Origin: Mycobacterium sp. MS1601
Lineage (GTDB): Bacteria; Actinomycetota; Actinomycetes; Mycobacteriales; Mycobacteriaceae
Direction of reading: 5' to 3'
Assembly: GCF_001984215.1 (NCBI RefSeq)
Contig: NZ_CP019424.1
Span: 1-13,210, forward strand
DNA length: 13,210 nt
Shown here: piece after piece, positions 7,236-13,210 of the stretch
Position numbering within the stretch: the stretch's first letter is position 1
How the letters are laid out: each line of letters opens with the position of its first letter
Notes under the pieces: model-generated
What the model saw: only the letters and a program-made list of their open reading frames with translations
What the model was told of the DNA's origin: nothing
The model's database searches: none
Position numbers and translations under genes: made by a program

Positions 7236-7271
7236 ATGACCAGACAATCCCGGCGACGGAAACGGCGTTGA
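7236..7271 (+). other. Possible 11-codon leader ORF overlapping the second TetR start
   Basis: ATG at 7236, preceded by GGTGAGAG at about 7222-7229, opens an 11-codon Arg-rich frame (MTRQSRRRKRR). Its TGA overlaps the TTG start of the TetR gene as TTGA. The TetR start has no good ribosome-binding site of its own, so coupling through this leader is possible. This is too short to be certain. Confidence 0.3.
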
Positions 7272-7927
7272 GCGAACATGTGTTGCCCGACGGCGACGAC
7301 GCCGATCCGCGTCGGGCGCGGTCACGGACCCGACTGCTCGACGCCGCCGCTCACCTGCTCAGTACCGGCGGAGTCGAGGCGGTCACGATCGAGGCGGTCA
7401 CCAAGGCCTCGAAGGTCGCACGAACCACCCTCTACCGCCACTTCACCAGTTCCTCCCACCTTCTCGCCGCCACCTTCGAGCGACTCCTGCCCCAGGTCAC
7501 CCCGCCGCTTCCGAGCTCAGTTCCCCTGCGAGAGCAGCTGATCGAACTGCTCACCCGTCAGGCAACCTTGTTCGCCGAGGCACCCCTTCACCTCACCACC
7601 CTCGCCTGGGTCTCACTAGGGCCTTTGTCGCCAGATGGTAAAGACGCGGGCCACACGCAGTCACTGCGAAAAAGGGTCGTCGACCAATACCGCCAACCGT
7701 TCGACACCATCCTGCAGAGCCCCCAAGCGCGCGACGAACTCGATGACTTCGACGTCGAACTCGCCATGTGCCAACTCGTCGGACCACTCGCCTTCGCACG
7801 CATGACCGGACTCCACACCATGAGCCGGCACCACTGCGAACACATCGTCGATGACTTCCTGACGGCGCATCAACGCATGCGCCCCGGAGGTCAACCAGCC
7901 TCAGCTCGCGATTTCTCACCGAAGTAG
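7268..7927 (+). CDS. TetR family transcriptional regulator
   Basis: The protein has 219 residues from TTG 7268; a GTG five codons in is an alternative. The DNA-binding domain spans about 19-66 (RTRLLDAAAHLLSTGG, then VTIEAVTKASKVARTTLYRHFTS). The C-terminal half is helical and presumably binds a ligand and forms a dimer; I do not recognise a subfamily or ligand. It is divergent from the KstR-like gene with about 157 bp between them. That region has two candidate operators, so autoregulation or control of the mmpL operon is likely. Downstream is the resolvase site region, so this gene marks the edge between the transporter block and the plasmid-maintenance block. Confidence 0.9.
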   Translation: MSEHVLPDGDDADPRRARSRTRLLDAAAHLLSTGGVEAVTIEAVTKASKVARTTLYRHFTSSSHLLAATFERLLPQVTPPLPSSVPLREQLIELLTRQATLFAEAPLHLTTLAWVSLGPLSPDGKDAGHTQSLRKRVVDQYRQPFDTILQSPQARDELDDFDVELAMCQLVGPLAFARMTGLHTMSRHHCEHIVDDFLTAHQRMRPGGQPASARDFSPK

Positions 7928-8001
7928 ACAGATTAACGCAGACGCCAAGCCGTGATTCCACGCGCGTGGCGATTGAGTTGTAGCGGCGGCAATCTAACCG
8001 T

Positions 8002-8025
8002 GTCTCGTTTCTAGAGAAACGAGAC
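8002..8025. repeat. 24-bp inverted repeat, probable serine-resolvase crossover site
   Basis: GTCTCGTTTCT at 8002-8012 and its exact complement AGAAACGAGAC at 8015-8025 flank a 2-bp AG centre. Serine resolvases cut around a central dinucleotide between inverted half-sites, and an asymmetric centre gives direction, so this layout fits site I of a res region. It lies about 116 bp upstream of the resolvase gene. Palindromic hairpin function (terminator for the TetR gene) is the alternative; no T-tract follows it. Confidence 0.6.
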
Positions 8026-8071
8026 CGGCTTACGGGGAACACTCCCCCGTCGCATCGCCCCAGGTGGCGCC

Positions 8072-8103
8072 GTCTCATTTCTCGTCTCACACAGCGTGTC
8101 TCA
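8072..8103 (+). repeat. Additional resolvase half-site-like repeats
   Basis: GTCTCATTTCT at 8072-8082 matches the crossover half-site in 10 of 11 positions. Shorter copies GTCTCAC (8084-8090) and GTCTCA (8098-8103) follow at 12- and 14-bp steps. These could be the accessory resolvase-binding subsites between the crossover site and the gene start. Confidence 0.5.
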
Positions 8104-8140
8104 GATCCTCGTTGTCGGTGCGCAATGCGACAGTGGTGCT

Positions 8141-8725
8141 GTGACGGCGATTCTCGGGTACGCGCGGGTAAGCACTCTGGGCCAGGACCTTGATGCGCAG
8201 CTCGCCGCGCTCGCCGCCGAGGGGGTCGAATCCGGTCATGTCTTCACCGACAAACTCTCCGGTGCGGTGAACACCGATCGGCCAGGTCTCACGGCCTTGC
8301 TTCACTATGCCCGCGAGGGTGACACCGTAGTGGTAACCGCCATCGATCGGCTGGGCCGATCTGTCGTAGAAGTAACTCGCACCATCGCAGATCTTGGCCA
8401 GCGCCGAATCCTGTTGCGCGCGTTACGTGAAGGCGTAGACACCGGTACGCCGACGGGGCGTGCGGTGGCCACCATTATGGCGACGCTGGCCGAGCTCGAG
8501 CTCGAGCTCGGCCGCGAGCGGCGCGCCGCCTCACGCGACTCTCGCCGAGTTCGCCAACTGCCGGCCACCAAGCCGGCCAAGCTGACCCCGGAACGCCAAG
8601 AACAGCTGCGCCGGCTCGCCGCAACGGGCGAACCGGTACCCGAACTTGCTCAAGCATTCGGCGTCAGCCGGGCCACGGCATACCGCTACCTGGCCAAACT
8701 CAGCTCACCATCAGGAGCCGCGTGA
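8141..8725 (+). CDS. Serine recombinase (resolvase/invertase family)
   Basis: The protein has 194 residues from GTG 8141. The catalytic domain opens with GYARVSTLGQDLDAQL, giving Ser11 as nucleophile and Arg9 next to it, and continues with VVVTAIDRLGRS carrying the conserved arginines R70 and R73. A long E-helix (about 103-135) leads to a C-terminal helix-turn-helix, PVPELAQAFGVSRATAYRYLA (165-185). This order (catalytic, then HTH) and length match Tn3-type resolvases and Pin-type invertases, not the IS607 or large serine integrase groups. An upstream in-frame GTG at 8096 would push the catalytic serine too far in and lies in the res region. Likely job: resolving plasmid multimers. Its stop overlaps the next gene (TGATG), so they are co-translated. 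Confidence 0.92.
   Translation: MTAILGYARVSTLGQDLDAQLAALAAEGVESGHVFTDKLSGAVNTDRPGLTALLHYAREGDTVVVTAIDRLGRSVVEVTRTIADLGQRRILLRALREGVDTGTPTGRAVATIMATLAELELELGRERRAASRDSRRVRQLPATKPAKLTPERQEQLRRLAATGEPVPELAQAFGVSRATAYRYLAKLSSPSGAA
8713..8717 (+). promoter_or_regulatory. Ribosome-binding site deciding the ATG start at 8725
   Basis: AGGAG lies 7 bases before ATG 8725 and 4 before GTG 8722. The spacing favours the ATG. Confidence 0.55.
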
Positions 8726-9366
8726 TGACCAGCACCGATCTGCACCCGTCGACACATCTACGAGCCGCGGCGTGGGTCCCCGACGACGTCGAAGATCGGC
8801 CGTGGGAGGACGCCATCGCCCTTGCCTCCGAATGGATTTGGGAACGCAGCCAGGAGGAGGATCTAGCGCCCCTGCTGGTGAGCAACGCGCAAAATGCCGC
8901 GAGCTTCGGTTATGCCGACCTTGACGAGATCATCCGAGCTGGTGGGCACGCCACGCCGCAAAGCCGTAGCCGGCCCGACCGCGGGCCGGTCCTAGTCTTC
9001 GTGCCAGATGAACGGTCGTTGCACTTCGCGATGGGCCTCGCTCGCGGTCATTCACTCGCTGTCGTCGAGGGTTCCACGCCCTTGGCCGAGTGGGCTGCTG
9101 GCGCGGCCGCGGTCAACCTGCTGACGGGAGAGGTCACGCCGTCCGAGATGGACGATGACGTGCGCAAAGACCTCGATTCCGTCATCTTCTACGGCGGCCG
9201 TAACGGCTGGACCGGAGCAGATGACAAGGCCCAAGCGCGACGCTTCCTCGGCGGCCACATCAGCGGCGGCCGGCTCACTCCCGATCAAGCCGCCGCCTAC
9301 GTCCTTTCGTCGCAGTCGGTGTCCGACCGCGGAGCGAAACGGCTACGCGAACAGCTCAGCCGCTAG
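8725..9366 (+). CDS. Protein of unknown function, between resolvase and AlbA_2-like gene
   Basis: The protein has 213 residues. I do not recognise a family. It is soluble, with no signal or membrane segment. An acidic, Trp-rich N-terminal part (AAAWVPDDVEDRPWEDAI and SEWIWERSQEEDL) is followed by a possible Rossmann-like or flavodoxin-like strand-helix unit (GPVLVFVPDERSLHFAMGLARGHSLAVVEG, about 87-116). Next is a distinctive segment SVIFYGGRNGWTGADDKAQARRFL (about 152-175) and a helical, basic C-terminus (LTPDQAAAYVL to KRLREQL). The conserved look of the GGRNGW-TG-DDK segment suggests an active or binding site. It overlaps the resolvase stop and lies 30 bp ahead of the AlbA_2-like gene, so the three form one transcription unit. 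A role in resolution, plasmid upkeep or a defence pair with the next gene is only inference. Confidence 0.8.
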   Translation: MTSTDLHPSTHLRAAAWVPDDVEDRPWEDAIALASEWIWERSQEEDLAPLLVSNAQNAASFGYADLDEIIRAGGHATPQSRSRPDRGPVLVFVPDERSLHFAMGLARGHSLAVVEGSTPLAEWAAGAAAVNLLTGEVTPSEMDDDVRKDLDSVIFYGGRNGWTGADDKAQARRFLGGHISGGRLTPDQAAAYVLSSQSVSDRGAKRLREQLSR

Positions 9367-9396
9367 TCCGCGCGAAAGTCCGGTTGAGGAGCCCCC

Positions 9397-10599
9397 ATGG
9401 ATGCGATCCAAGCCCGTACAGAAGACGAACTCCAGCGGTTAGCGCTGAATGGGTTGCTTGAAGAAACCCACTGGTTGGATCTCAAGCGGGAGCTGGGATC
9501 CGGTAACGCCGCCAACAAGGACCTAGCCAAAGACATCGCTGCTTTCGCTCTTGACGGAGGAACAATCCTGATCGGCGTCGACGAGGACACCTCACCGCCA
9601 GGCCTGTGGCCCGTCCCTATCCACGGACTCGCCGAACGCATCGAGCAGATCGCGCGAATGAGAGTCGACGAGGCGGTACAGATCCGCACCACCGCCATCA
9701 ACTCCACTAGCGATCCCACCCTCGGTTACGTCGTGGTCCACGTGCCGCAGTCAGTTCGAGCCCCGCACATGGTCGATGGCCGCTATTACGGCCGCGGCGA
9801 CAAAACCAACCGAATGCTCCCCAATGCCGAGGTAGTGCGGCTACTCGACAGGCGACTGGCTGATCGTCGTGACCTCCGAGCGGATGCGCGCGCGATACGT
9901 ACAGACCTCGTCGGCGGTGACCAACGACTGTTAGTGGTGGTGGCCGAGCCGGTCGGGGCCCGCGAGGACATGCTCGTTGCTTTGTCTGAATCATCAACGT
10001 GGCAAGAAACAGTGCTTCAACTAGTGCACTCAGCCACGGACGCTCAAAACCAAACGTATGCACCAACTTTGGCCCAGGCCAGCGGTTTCGCCCGACGTCC
10101 TGGCGGCGTCGCACTCACCACTGGCATGTACGACGGGCAACGTTTCTCGGGCAACGACCACGCCGCCGAGATCGTCTTCACCGAATCCGGGCGGCTCGTT
10201 CTGGCATCTGAGCGAGCCGTGACCACACGATCATTCCCAAACGTGTTCCCTGCCCAACCCGACGTCACCGTCATATTTGAGGCGTTGATCGTCGGTCACA
10301 TCAGCATGCTTGCCCGACTCGCTGCGGCGGTCTCCCATCAGTGGGGATATACCGGCAGTTGGCGGTTCGCACTCTCGATGAATGGCCTCAACGACTCGGT
10401 CTCATGGACCCTCGCCGACCAGCATTTCGGCGACGGAGGGCCGATCTACACCGAGAACATCTATGAGCGGGCCACTGAAGCTTCGCTAGACGACCTCGAC
10501 GACGACCCCGGCCAGGTCGCCGCGGACCTCACTGCTCCGCTGCTTCGAAGCCTCGGCAGTTACCCAGCCTGGGCAAAACGCTTGCAACGACAGTCCTAA
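9397..10599 (+). CDS. Schlafen AlbA_2-domain protein
   Basis: The protein has 400 residues, with ATG preceded by GAGGAG at 9386-9391. The N-terminal part (about 22-140) has the AlbA_2 (Schlafen-type, formerly divergent AAA_4) pattern: ETHWLDLKREL, KDLAKDIAAFALDGGTILIGVDED, YVVVHVP, and a strongly family-like RAPHMVDGRYYGRGDKTNRML. These domains bind nucleic acid or nucleotides; some relatives are RNases, and bacterial members occur in regulators and defence loci. The rest (about 150-400) is an unassigned domain rich in helices and strands, with an acidic stretch SLDDLDDDPGQ near the end. No DNA-binding HTH tail is evident, unlike many AlbA_2 regulators. It is last in the resolvase unit and convergent with an Abi/HEPN-like gene. 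Defence or stress function is inference. Confidence 0.8.
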   Translation: MDAIQARTEDELQRLALNGLLEETHWLDLKRELGSGNAANKDLAKDIAAFALDGGTILIGVDEDTSPPGLWPVPIHGLAERIEQIARMRVDEAVQIRTTAINSTSDPTLGYVVVHVPQSVRAPHMVDGRYYGRGDKTNRMLPNAEVVRLLDRRLADRRDLRADARAIRTDLVGGDQRLLVVVAEPVGAREDMLVALSESSTWQETVLQLVHSATDAQNQTYAPTLAQASGFARRPGGVALTTGMYDGQRFSGNDHAAEIVFTESGRLVLASERAVTTRSFPNVFPAQPDVTVIFEALIVGHISMLARLAAAVSHQWGYTGSWRFALSMNGLNDSVSWTLADQHFGDGGPIYTENIYERATEASLDDLDDDPGQVAADLTAPLLRSLGSYPAWAKRLQRQS

Positions 10600-10637
10600 G
10601 GCAGGCCGGCGCCGTTTCGGGGGCGCTATGGATTATT

Positions 10638-10701
10638 ACGTCATGACGTATAGACGTAATTGCGTCTCAACGTAAGTACGTCATGACGTCATGACGTCGT
10701 G
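10638..10701. repeat. Array A: eight tandem 8-bp repeats (ACGT-core)
   Basis: Units start at 10638, 10646, 10654, 10662, 10670, 10678, 10686 and 10694, with no slippage. Seven begin ACGT and one GCGT; the most frequent unit is ACGTCATG. The array contains the perfect palindrome ACGTCATGACGT-type junctions where adjacent units abut. It lies between converging genes and covers the last codons of the Abi-like gene (stop at 10691-10689), so it is not a promoter. It matches the arrays near parA and is most likely a partition (centromere) or RHH-binding site. Confidence 0.85.
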
Positions 10702-11453
10702 GGTCGCTGCGTCAGCACGGTCTGTACCTTGCTTCGTCTCACGACCCAGTCGCGCAATTCATGGCTGATCGAGTTCAGCAGCGGTAGGAGAACCCGGTCG
10801 TGCTGATGTCGAACGTCGACATAGAGCAGTGAGTCCATATGAGACACGCGGTTTCGTAGTTTCCGCAGATCACGAACCTTGTTGCCTGTGCCGTACCCGC
10901 GCGGGTCGTGTTGGACGTGGGGAAATCCCCCATGCAGGCAGTTGCGCCACAGGTCCCGACGGGCTTGAAGGTTCACCGGGTTTTGCACCGGATGGCCGTT
11001 TGGGTCCACCCATCCCGCATTGAACTTCTCGGGTAGCAGGTTGGCCCAGGTGCCGAACATGACGTTCGCGACCAGGTCGTCATGGGTGATCGCGCCGCCG
11101 TGACGGGGGTGGTTGGCCGGCCGAGCGCGGCGAGACTGGTCAGCTGCCTTGTAAAGGTTGTGGCGGGATGCGCTGAACACGTTCGGCCCCGACAGGTACG
11201 GAATGCTGGCAACGTGACCGATCCATTCAGGCGCACCTACATGCTGCTGCGACCACCCGCACAGCTGCGTGTCGATCGCATGCCGCACCGCGACCTCGGC
11301 GATTCCCAACGGGTCCTGTAAGGCGGCGGCGACCTCGATGTTCCACTCGTAGAGTGCCAGCGCATCGGCGTCTTGCCCGCCAGAAAGAGACCGATAATGC
11401 GCCAGTCGCGAAGGGTGCAGGCTCTTGAAGATCTCCGCTGGGTTCACTGACAC
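10689..11453 (-). CDS. Abi-like protein with HEPN-type RX4H motif
   Basis: The protein has 254 residues, with GTG start at 11453. It resembles the Abi_2/AbiD-AbiF group: ALALYEWNIEVAAALQDPLGIAEVAVRHAI at about 31-60, DDLVANVMFGTWANLLPEKF (125-144), and KLRNRVSHMDSLLY (198-211), which gives RNRVSH with R200 and H205. HEPN-fold RNases use an RX4-6H motif and many Abi proteins use it to cleave RNA and stop growth after phage infection. So this is a candidate RNase of an abortive-infection or toxin type. No obvious antitoxin is adjacent. Its 3' end runs into repeat array A and its 5' side faces a hairpin and array B, so it sits as a single-gene cassette between two arrays. Confidence 0.75.
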   Translation of the reverse strand: MSVNPAEIFKSLHPSRLAHYRSLSGGQDADALALYEWNIEVAAALQDPLGIAEVAVRHAIDTQLCGWSQQHVGAPEWIGHVASIPYLSGPNVFSASRHNLYKAADQSRRARPANHPRHGGAITHDDLVANVMFGTWANLLPEKFNAGWVDPNGHPVQNPVNLQARRDLWRNCLHGGFPHVQHDPRGYGTGNKVRDLRKLRNRVSHMDSLLYVDVRHQHDRVLLPLLNSISHELRDWVVRRSKVQTVLTQRPTTS

Positions 11454-11480
11454 AACCGGTCACTGTGCCAGACAAACAAG

Positions 11481-11507
11481 GAAGCCCCCCTCAGAGAGGG
11501 AGGCTTC
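11481..11507 (-). terminator. Rho-independent-like hairpin after the par cassette
   Basis: GAAGCCCCCCT (11481-11491) and AGGGAGGCTTC (11497-11507) pair over 11 positions with one mismatch around a CAGAG loop. Read on the minus strand it is followed by CTTGTTTGT, a T-rich tail, so it would end the parA-RHH transcript before the Abi gene, whose own promoter must then lie between the hairpin and 11453. Confidence 0.65.
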
Positions 11508-11561
11508 TTCACGAACAGCCGGACAAGCCGACCGCATCTGTAAGCACTATATCAAATTTGG

Positions 11562-11582
11562 GACACCAATGAAGACACCAAT
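11562..11582. repeat. Short direct repeat, 9 bp twice at a 12-bp step
   Basis: GACACCAAT occurs at 11562-11570 and 11574-11582, in an AT-richer patch between the terminator hairpin and array B. It is not part of the ACGT repeats. It may be a protein-binding site or chance. Confidence 0.4.
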
Positions 11583-11605
11583 TTCAAGCATTCGGAGGTG
11601 TACAG

Positions 11606-11637
11606 ACGTAACAACGTAACAACGTAATTACGTCTTG
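11606..11637. repeat. Array B: four tandem 8-bp repeats (ACGT-core)
   Basis: Units start at 11606, 11614, 11622 and 11630: ACGTAACA twice, then ACGTAATT and ACGTCTTG. Same period and core as arrays A and C. It starts at the end of the RHH gene: the TAA that would end the frame-corrected gene (11630-11628) falls within it. Position downstream of the par genes is like a second centromere flanking a type Ib par operon. Confidence 0.8.
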
Positions 11638-11854
11638 GCGTTGTCGGCCAGCCACGATCGGCCAAATCGGTGAGGATCTTGCTCATGCTGGTGTCGCCGT
11701 CAAGGGCGGCCTGCTTGAGGCCCCGAACAGTAGAACGGGGCAGGTAGACCGTGGCTCTCTGCATGTCATCTGCGGGGGACCGGAACGCTTCGGCGGCCCG
11801 CTTGGAGGGCTCAGTGCGCACACGGGCGGCCATCTTCGAGGTCAGATCAGACAT
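11628..11854 (-). pseudogene. Small ribbon-helix-helix partition protein (ParG/ParB-like), apparent C-terminal frameshift
   Basis: It starts at ATG 11854, overlapping the parA stop by 8 bp. A basic, probably disordered N-terminus (about 1-30) precedes the RHH: strand QRATVYLP (32-39), helix STVRGLKQAALDG (41-53), helix SMSKILTDLADR (56-67). This matches the architecture of small ParG/omega-type centromere-binding proteins that pair with short ParA. As written, the frame then runs through array B and ends at 11552 (100 residues) with a tail of no RHH character. Adding one base near 11654-11656 gives DRWLADNAKT and TAA at 11630-11628, a natural 75-residue protein; I take this as the real gene. 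It should bind the 8-bp arrays, pair with ParA and repress the par promoter. A genuine extended tail is the alternative. Confidence 0.72.
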
Positions 11855-12424
11855 GGGCCATCGCTTCCAGGAGTTCGGTCAGAACATCGTCGTAGCCGTG
11901 CAGACGGGTGGGAGTGGCGCCGTAGGCACGGCGCACGTCTTCGCGCCGCAGGATCGGGGTCCCGATGACGGGTACGCCTTCGGCCTCCAAGAGTCCGCGG
12001 ACTTCATCGGCAAGACGGGTGCGTAGATCCACGCTCGTCAGCAGGACGGCGGTCGGACGGTGAGCGGTGATCTCCAACGTGGGCCAGACCGTCGAACGTC
12101 CAGCGGGGACGTCCCGGTCGGCACGACGACCAGATCTGCGATGTCAATGGCCTCCTGGATTACCTGCGCCGTTCCAGGTGGGGTGTCGATGATTGTCAAG
12201 TCGCAATCGCGATCTGCGGTCAGGGGCCGGCTGGCCGGCACTACAGGAAACGGCATCGGACCGTCGGCCGTGGCGTCGGCGGCCCATTCGAGTGCAGAGC
12301 CTTGTGGATCGGCATCGACGAGCACCACGTCTAAGCCGCGCGAGACGCCCGCGGCTGCGAGATACATCGCGCTGGTGGTCTTGGCGACCCCACCCTTGGT
12401 GTGCACCAGGGAAATAATCGGCAT
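11847..12424 (-). pseudogene. parA: ParA-type partition ATPase, split by a one-base frameshift
   Basis: The N-terminal part (from ATG 12424) has the deviant Walker A KGGVAKTT at about 10-17 with both lysines, the A' motif VLVDADPQGS and the Walker B region LTIIDTPPGT, followed by IADLVVVPTGTSPLDV. The C-terminal part (LEITAHRPTAVLLTSVD, GVPVIGTPILRREDVRRAYG, ending LEAMAHV) is in another frame. One extra base in the CC at 12089-12090 (plus strand) restores DVRRVWPTLEITAH and a 192-residue protein, the size of short type Ib ParA proteins. It has no N-terminal HTH, so repression is likely done by the RHH protein. ParA would use ATP-dependent, nonspecific nucleoid binding to move plasmid copies apart. 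Array C begins 13 bp before its start codon. Whether the lesion is real or a sequencing error is open. Confidence 0.85.
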
Positions 12425-12436
12425 ACCAGCGATCTT

Positions 12437-12500
12437 ACGTCATGACGTAACAACATAACTACGCTAAAACGCAAAAACGTCATTACGTTATTACGTCATA
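12437..12500. repeat. Array C: eight tandem 8-bp repeats upstream of parA (probable centromere/operator)
   Basis: Units start at 12437, 12445, 12453, 12461, 12469, 12477, 12485 and 12493. Outer units are near-consensus (ACGTCATG, ACGTCATT, ACGTTATT, ACGTCATA); the inner ones are degenerate (ACATAACT, ACGCTAAA, ACGCAAAA) but keep the 8-bp phase. A perfect 16-bp palindrome TTACGTCATGACGTAA spans 12435-12450. The array covers the only room for a parA promoter, so RHH binding here should both mark the centromere and autoregulate the operon, as known for type Ib par loci and for MetJ, another RHH protein that binds 8-bp tandem boxes. Confidence 0.85.
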
Positions 12501-12535
12501 GTGGTGAACCGAAGCATGTTGACGGCAGGCCATCG

Positions 12536-12760
12536 CTAGATGCCGACGTGCTTGTCCAGCCAGGCTGCAGCCACGAAGAACACCCCGCCGCCCGCTACGG
12601 CAGCGGTGAGTGGTTCACGTGTTCCTGCGTAGGTTCCGATCCCGCTAGCCCCTGCGGCCACCGCGGCCGCCGAGAACACCACGGTGCTGCGCAGCGTCAG
12701 CAGCGGCGGTGGGTCCTTCTTCTGTGATGCCACAGTTGCCCCTATTGCTCGTAGAAACAT
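12536..12760 (-). CDS. Small two-helix membrane protein of unknown function
   Basis: The protein has 74 residues from ATG 12760, preceded on its strand by a GGGGTGAAGG purine-rich site. Two hydrophobic segments are visible, TVVFSAAAVAAGASGIGTYAG (about 26-46) and LTAAVAGGGVFFVAAAW (51-67), after a short charged start with SQKKDPPP. It ends DKHVGI. No family recognised; such small membrane proteins are common on plasmids and phages. An in-frame start further upstream (12817) would add 19 residues of non-hydrophobic sequence and is less likely. Divergent from the RHH gene at 13062 and upstream of array C on the same strand as parA, with no sign of being in the par operon. Confidence 0.6.
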   Translation of the reverse strand: MFLRAIGATVASQKKDPPPLLTLRSTVVFSAAAVAAGASGIGTYAGTREPLTAAVAGGGVFFVAAAWLDKHVGI

Positions 12761-12778
12761 GCCTTCACCCCTTAAAGG
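12754..12778. repeat. Copy 1 of an imperfect 25-bp direct repeat
   Basis: Positions 12754-12778 match 13057-13081 in 22 of 25 bases, starting GAAACATGCCT and ending TAAAGG. This copy covers the start codon region of the small membrane protein; on the plus strand it would encode MPSPLKG, compared with MPRPRKG at the start of the RHH protein 303 bp (101 codons) downstream. Confidence 0.6.
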
Positions 12779-12791
12779 GACGGCAGGCCAT

Positions 12792-13061
12792 GTTCTACAG
12801 GGGCACCGTGCAGACAACTGGGCCGCTAAACTGCCAACAGCCCTAAACGTGCAGGTCAGAAGGCTATGTCTGGACGGGGGCGCACACCCGGCTCAACAGT
12901 CCGGCACGGCTCGTCTTCCCTCGCTGAGTTGCTCTTCACCACACACTGGGCGGCCTCGGCCCAGTTCCGCTGGCATGACGAACCACACCAGTCACAAAAA
13001 CATCACGGGCGACGGCGTGTCCTGTATCAGATACCGCGATCTTGCTGGCAGTCTTCGAAAC
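12792..13061. other. Region upstream of the terminal RHH gene, nothing assigned
   Basis: About 270 bp without a gene I can support. A plus-strand frame is open from 12759 through the RHH start without a stop, but its translation is rich in His, Ser and Cys and has no motif. The promoters of the divergent small membrane gene and the RHH gene should lie here. Confidence 0.4.
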
Positions 13062-13081
13062 ATGCCTCGACCCCGTAAAGG
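13057..13081. repeat. Copy 2 of an imperfect 25-bp direct repeat
   Basis: This copy contains the ATG of the terminal RHH gene (13062-13064) and its first codons. It differs from copy 1 at three positions. No Shine-Dalgarno-like sequence precedes the ATG, so leaderless translation is possible. Confidence 0.6.
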
Positions 13082-13210
13082 CGACCGCGTGGAACTGCTA
13101 ACCCGCCCGGAGCGTCTCGTTTCCGAAAAGATCAAGCAGCAGGCCGCCGCGCGAGGCATGTCTGTCTCGCAATACGTGGCTGATCTGCTAGCCATCCAAG
13201 CCGGCCACCC
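13062..13210 (+). CDS. Ribbon-helix-helix DNA-binding protein, N-terminal part (3' truncated by window)
   Basis: The frame runs off the right edge after 49 codons. It reads MPRPRKGDRVELLTR then PERLVSEKIKQQAAARG, then MSVSQYVADLLAIQAGHP. This is the pattern of small RHH/CopG-like proteins on mycobacterial plasmids and phages: a short strand region, a first helix (VSEKIKQQAAARG) and a second helix starting MSVSQYVADLLA. Such proteins act as copy-control, antitoxin or transcriptional repressors. It is unlike the par RHH protein in sequence. What lies beyond the edge, perhaps a replication gene, would decide its role. Confidence 0.75.
   Translation, partial: MPRPRKGDRVELLTRPERLVSEKIKQQAAARGMSVSQYVADLLAIQAGH

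Follow-up and report, generated by a model that had tools for sequence, protein, structure and literature searches.

The eight octamer repeats at positions 12437–12500 of contig NZ_CP019424.1 of Mycobacterium sp. MS1601 very probably form the parS site on the parA side of a type Ib parABS cassette, one of the kind known from phage RedRock and carried here on a mycobacterial plasmid. The evidence consists of the sequence of the repeats, their register and conservation, homology, and the ribbon-helix-helix (RHH) fold indicated for the partner protein by profile and model. The stretch analysed, called the window below, is the whole contig of 13,210 bases, one of six contigs in a genome of 6,829,132 bases (6.83 Mb). 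The best plasmid match to the par end of the window is pMSPYR102 of Mycolicibacterium gilvum Spyr1 (86% over 81% of the query).

Repeat arrays in the window

Array 1 (12437–12500, no strand assigned), which is parS-L-like and likely also an operator, is made up of eight 8-bp units that, read directly, are in order ACGTCATG, ACGTAACA, ACATAACT, ACGCTAAA, ACGCAAAA, ACGTCATT, ACGTTATT and ACGTCATA. The preliminary description reported eight octamers with an exact 8-bp step at the parA start, and they do run through the 64 bases without a slip in register; the ACGT core is exact in five units and has one change in the other three, and a gap of 12 bases separates the array from the parA ATG. That first reading needs correction on two points: the octamers form three arrays in the window, not one, and each repeat unit, which is directional, combines a core and a spacer of 4 bp each. 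Array 2 (11606–11645, no strand assigned) is parS-R-like, and its five in-register units overlap the small partner gene at its 3' end. Array 3 (10638–10701, likewise unstranded), a distal parS-like site that lies downstream of the parA start at a distance of about 1.76 kb, has eight in-register units, seven with an exact ACGT, and overlaps the next gene at its 3' end. The centres of the three arrays lie at -42, +801 and +1757 relative to the parA ATG.

Chance and low complexity are ruled out as the source of these arrays by shuffles, by a genome-wide pattern search and by the control windows described below. When up to one mismatch is allowed, ACGTNANNACGTNA occurs 23 times in the window (0.65 expected), a number reached in none of 200 shuffles, and only one of the 23 (at 1836) lies outside the arrays. 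A run finder that requires at least four in-register cores, each with at most one mismatch and at least two of them exact, returns three runs in the window and none in any of 50 shuffles. A genome-wide search with a three-unit pattern and one mismatch gave 11 matches, all within the three arrays of this contig, and the reversed control of that pattern has none in the 6,829,132 bases. Among 297 same-genus genomes, a 16-mer pattern has at least one match in 62, single matches being near background, and at least three matches in 20, versus six for the reversed control (counted by eye). The partner protein is present in nine of 401 genomes of the family, with four close matches, the window's genome included.

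The commonest hexamers among 212 pooled units from 24 records (near copies included, all chosen for ACGT-like cores) are GACGTA, found 71 times, and its reverse complement TACGTC, found 59 times. In 50 non-duplicate arrays the unit direction switches 90 times, against a shuffled mean of 120 (minimum of 2000 shuffles 102), and plus-to-minus switches exceed minus-to-plus switches by 28 (shuffled maximum 19), comparisons in which shuffling of direction overstates independence because the arrays share ancestry. The low number of switches and the plus-to-minus excess therefore suggest that the arrays tend to be two facing half-arrays.

A terminator-like hairpin of 12 pairs, recognised by consensus match only, lies downstream of parB at 11481–11507 on the minus strand. 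A scan of 10550–12650 found no sigma-70-like promoter (0.6 expected), so the operator role of array 1 is argued from its position and from the repression attributed to RedRock ParB (see below). Between arrays 2 and 3 lies a gene (10689–11453, minus strand) that is PD-T4-5-like by PADLOC and is called the slot gene here; an open reading frame with a Schlafen/AlbA_2 domain (PF04326, E 1.9e-10; 9397–10599, plus strand) is convergent with it and stops just short of array 3. Two 30-nt copies (83%) are present at 12749–12778 and 13052–13081, 303 bp apart, and the latter carries the start of a small open reading frame (13062 to the contig end) that has weak RHH-like matches and whose relatives are labelled toxin-antitoxin system.

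The parA and parB genes

The window's parA gene (11847–12424, minus strand) encodes a small ParA ATPase in a broken frame: residues 1–117 and 111–192 of pMSPYR102 ParA are matched in two frames, by pieces that are 91% and 94% identical to that protein. In the relatives L001–L006, L019–L035 and L043, parA is a single open frame. The gene of the small partner, parB (11552–11854, minus strand), matches its relatives over residues 1–68 and has its last residues in another frame; the breaks in the two genes are about 450 bases apart. They are due to decay or to assembly error, and because its own parA and parB are frame-broken, this copy of the cassette may not work. The start of parB overlaps the end of parA by 8 bp in both RedRock and pMSPYR102. 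A MobF relaxase is found in five of the six fetched plasmid records L001–L006.

The preliminary description proposed as the binding partner the small RHH protein adjoining parA, and the profile and fold comparisons agree that this protein is of the RHH kind; it is a homologue of RedRock ParB. The partner profile matches ParG (1p94, E 0.0016), RHH_1 is matched by eight of 11 members at E 1, and PHROG 2639, an Arc-like repressor, is matched by all 11 members of A1. Under the curated Pfam cut-offs the L001 partner reaches 19 bits for RHH_1 (cut-off 20.5) and 16.6 bits for ParG (PF09274, cut-off 21.4), and on the latter score it is not assigned to the ParG family. The leading fold matches to a model of a 75-aa relative are CopG, Arc, ParG, PutA and AmrZ, with omega (1irq) further down; Foldseek gave no match at E ≤0.001 (best 0.11), and in the single-chain model no strand is assigned where the ribbon should be. 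The small partner is, as predicted from profile and fold model, an RHH protein.

Conservation of phase and position in related systems

Twenty-five systems with this partner were compared, namely the window, six plasmid records (L001–L006) and 18 genome loci (L019–L035 and L043). Thirteen of 42 plasmid records were fetched, and L007 was left out of the period test as a near copy of L005; of 80 genome loci, 25 entered the period test and 28 the upstream comparison, the remainder being weaker matches, mostly from other phyla. The period test, which is unbiased, tried every period from 5 to 13 on the 200 bases that precede parA. Its best period is 8 in all 25 systems, with z at least 4 in 24 of them (z is 3.6 in L033). 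Of 234 control windows taken from six of these records, 14 had 8 as their best period and none reached a z of 4 for it; 18 had a z of at least 4 at another period, which makes the test informative about an 8-bp period and not about periodicity in general. Drifting cores in constant phase had been read at the outset as a sign of selection, with the phase in related plasmids proposed as a check. Loss of the octamer phase did not occur in that check and the controls are negative, which speaks for the original reading.

A strict finder detects an upstream array in 22 of the 25 systems (all but L004, L033 and L035), an array at the parB 3' end, at +799 to +816, in 20 (21 if L024, at +943, is counted), and a distal array in 18, counts in which several arrays are near copies and some loci end early. 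The upstream array centres of the relatives lie at -37 to -59 from the parA ATG; 20 of 23 parB-side arrays are at +799 to +816 and three at +943 to +993, and 19 of 20 distal arrays are at +1712 to +1900 and one at +1347.

L010, a plasmid record, shares 12503–13210 with the window at 93% and has neither an ACGT array nor a close parAB; it has a weak ParA-like match at its end (27–39% identity, E 0.001–0.002), and no ParB was found in it at E 1. The strict ACGT finder returned no array in L008, L009, L012 and L013, which have other ParA partners. In L008, L009 and L012 the best period is 8 as well, on cores that are different or degenerate, and two ACGT chains come up in L012 with a less strict finder.

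We note that L002, a 43.7-kb M. grossiae plasmid record, has the par-region arrays twice, at 7751–9606 and 28186–30035, 20.4 kb apart, and that in G260, the genome with L002's coordinates, one of the parB copies is divided between two frames; the doubled par region is perhaps a dimer or an assembly duplication. Corynebacterium efficiens pCE2 (L013) has two ParA genes (7257–8113 and 16770–17627), a small gene after each, and differing upstream repeats.

Relationship to the RedRock cassette

Tandem repeats before parA were proposed earlier as phage centromeres of type 1b (excerpts of PMC3585329). According to the excerpted text of PMC7157519, RedRock ParB recognises two parS sites, each made up of eight repeats of 8 bp, the RedRock cassette stabilises shuttle plasmids, and Miko and Rachaly have an additional parS locus. 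The window system shares with RedRock (gp37/gp38, parS-L and parS-R) a homologous ParA and a predicted RHH ParB encoded directly after parA, and RedRock and the plasmid systems have in common 8-bp arrays before parA and after parB. The ParA of L019 is 51% identical to RedRock ParA over 185 residues, and its ParB is 45% identical to RedRock ParB over 67 aa. Before parA, RedRock has ten TCGA-like cores at 8-bp steps with at most one change, seven of them exact, and at its parB end there are seven such cores, six exact. RedRock ParB is said to repress parAB at parS-L. Twenty-one phage records match the partner, with ParB or an Arc-like repressor annotated in 19. From a sample in which 23 of 79 viral loci were used and eight of 21 phage rows were fetched, all 31 phage records have a best period of 8; they represent about 27 phages, four being in twice as judged by record length and array. 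In phage Benvolio an unannotated stretch downstream of the annotated ParB (L114 2501–2614) shares 63% identity with the plasmid partner across 38 residues and is perhaps a second RHH gene.

The two branches differ in several respects. The core is ACGT in the window systems and TCGA in RedRock; half-arrays tend to face each other in the former, whereas the RedRock repeats are described as direct and in a single orientation (phage Loser has both unit directions mixed, in register). A distal third array past the next gene sets the window and plasmid systems against RedRock, and the relatives of the window system are plasmids, whereas RedRock is a mycobacteriophage. The window system belongs with RedRock, as a branch on plasmids that has a core, an arrangement and a third site of its own. 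The earlier suggestion of a new centromere type does not stand, since the RedRock design of eight 8-bp copies, small ParB and parA had already been reported and TP228 parH also has tetramer boxes. We found no description of arrays of this type in plasmids in the literature searched; the main phage parABS paper (Dedrick 2016), which may mention plasmids, lies outside that literature.

Comparison with MetJ, TP228 and omega

MetJ is an RHH protein, and we take the R-x-T of the window-type strand to resemble its Lys23 and Thr25. In the excerpts of PMC4239095 the met box AGACGTCT occurs in tandem, and these 8-bp boxes with their ACGT centre are like the window arrays; MetJ is described there as the SAM-responsive methionine repressor of gamma-proteobacteria, unlike the window partner. 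The met-box comparison drawn in the preliminary description is apt, by analogy, for the mechanism. Membership of the MetJ family is rejected, as the MetJ model is absent among the 19 Pfam families matched at E 1 by any of the 11 partner members.

The box of TP228 parH is ACTC and its spacers are 4 bp. The available text of PMC7308502 describes parH as a series of degenerate tetramer boxes separated by AT-rich spacers, and TP228 ParG as a protein whose RHH domain is C-terminal and whose N-terminal tails are unstructured. Like TP228 parFGH, the window system has a ParA homologue and a partner whose profile matches ParG, and like parH it has, beside the par genes, a tetramer core (ACGT-like) and a 4-bp spacer in each unit; unlike TP228, it has another core and a partner under the ParG Pfam cut-off. 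The omega protein of pSM19035 is an RHH protein with sites near par genes. Its repeats are heptads, by the title of the omega paper, versus 8 bp in the window, and sites of the omega heptad kind are rejected because the best repeat step is 8 bp, not 7 bp, in all 25 systems.

Proposed mechanism and alternatives

The phage homology, together with the 8-bp repeats read by RedRock ParB, makes array 1 most likely a parS centromere and operator. Each dimer of the RHH ParB would contact a 4-bp ACGT-like core through a two-stranded β-ribbon placed in the major groove, and β-strand residues 33–35 would read this core, by analogy with MetJ. Adjacent dimers would stack at every 8 bp along the array, so that the phase would be held while single cores may drift. 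ParB bound at array 1, beside the parA start, probably would also repress parAB, and the same ParB loaded on arrays 2 and 3 would form a nucleoprotein cluster of about 1.9 kb that ParA could move. We infer ParB binding, stacking, repression and partition on this plasmid from the sequence and from analogy.

The slot between the parB-side and distal arrays is occupied in 16 of the 25 systems (the window, L001–L004, L019–L022, L027, L028, L030, L031, L033, L034 and L043). The slot gene is PD-T4-5-like by PADLOC in the window, L001, L002, L022 and L033 and HEC-09-like (NYN) in L003 and L031, the other nine having been assigned by eye from their first residues. The slot is a candidate exchangeable defence-gene site framed by parS-like arrays. 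A defence-like gene lies beyond the second array, outside the slot, in L029 (weak PDC-M51B match) and L035 (PD-T4-5/AbiD). The presence of genes of unrelated kinds between these two arrays would fit arrays that serve mainly as recombination ends for exchange of the gene between them, with partition as a side use, but array 1 has no such slot and gene exchange beside a par locus requires no special site, and we consider this very improbable.

It is also improbable that the arrays are operators only, at which the RHH protein represses parAB and its neighbours in the manner of MetJ while the true centromere lies elsewhere. The end of array 1 so close to the parA start and the ACGT centre that the met box AGACGTCT also has agree with an operator, but such arrays are reported as parS in RedRock (excerpts of PMC7157519). 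Arrays 2 and 3, moreover, lie at gene 3' ends and not ahead of gene starts. Short direct repeats of constant phase are typical of iterons, and in this the arrays resemble those of a replication origin bound by a plasmid Rep protein. They flank parAB, however, and are absent from L010, which has the replication-side stretch (93%) and no close parAB. Iterons are named for phage P1 in the excerpted text of PMC7157519, and RedRock, described there as a repA-less phage, keeps the 8-bp design; a replication origin is hardly credible here.

Core tetramer and ParB β-strand

The β-strand of ParB and the core of its arrays were compared on a ParB alignment, which replaced a strand caller that failed for several phages, and the cores were also read by eye because the automatic 4-bp core caller often took a shifted core. 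A RAT strand accompanies an ACGT core in 25 systems, TMG/TLG and NMA strands accompany TCGA in 16, RTN accompanies ACAC/GTGT in five records (three phages), KLN/KFN accompany GCGC/ACGC in three records (two phages) and KFT accompanies ACGG in three records (two phages); RVT, KYT and QYS strands occur in one phage each, with ACGT-like cores. A difference in the ParB strand is mostly accompanied by a difference in the core tetramer. The ParB proteins of phages Loser and AnnaL29 are 70% identical and have strands SRTNLY and AKLNTY and arrays of ACAC and GCGC/ACGC, respectively. On a ParA tree of 56 rows, made by a quick method with one support value and with the ACGT label of L012, L013b, L129, L135 and L136 taken from weak arrays, the ACAC and GCGC/ACGC labels need two changes each, forced by the starred branches, and each time a given core is paired with one and the same strand type.

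There are counter-cases: RTT strands occur with different repeats (L008, L011, L012 and L013b; others are without a clear array), TCGA is common to two strand types, and L129 and L132 have ACGT-like cores with other residues. parB and parS could also be inherited as one block, and the match of strand and core, which comes from comparing sequences, associates the two within a set of related systems and does not prove a code. Read as a code, R-A-T would specify ACGT, T-L/M-G and N-M-A would specify TCGA, R-T-N would specify ACAC/GTGT, K-L/F-N would specify GCGC/ACGC and K-F-T would specify ACGG. We tentatively suggest, as a possibility that falls a little short of an even chance, that throughout this ParB family of plasmids and phages dimer packing fixes the 8-bp pitch while a few β-strand residues switch centromere identity, and that defence genes are also swapped in a slot flanked by two of the plasmid arrays.

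If true, RHH centromere proteins would have a recognition code that occurs in nature, and this code would be the basis of plasmid/prophage incompatibility, which here means plasmid against plasmid and plasmid against extrachromosomal prophage. The natural ParB/parS pairs in the 25 plasmid-type systems and 31 phage records, with one pitch and differing cores, make such an RHH code directly testable. Mycobacterial plasmid partition is tied in this way to a phage system with functional data, and plasmid maintenance and incompatibility might therefore be predictable from the core tetramer and the β-strand.
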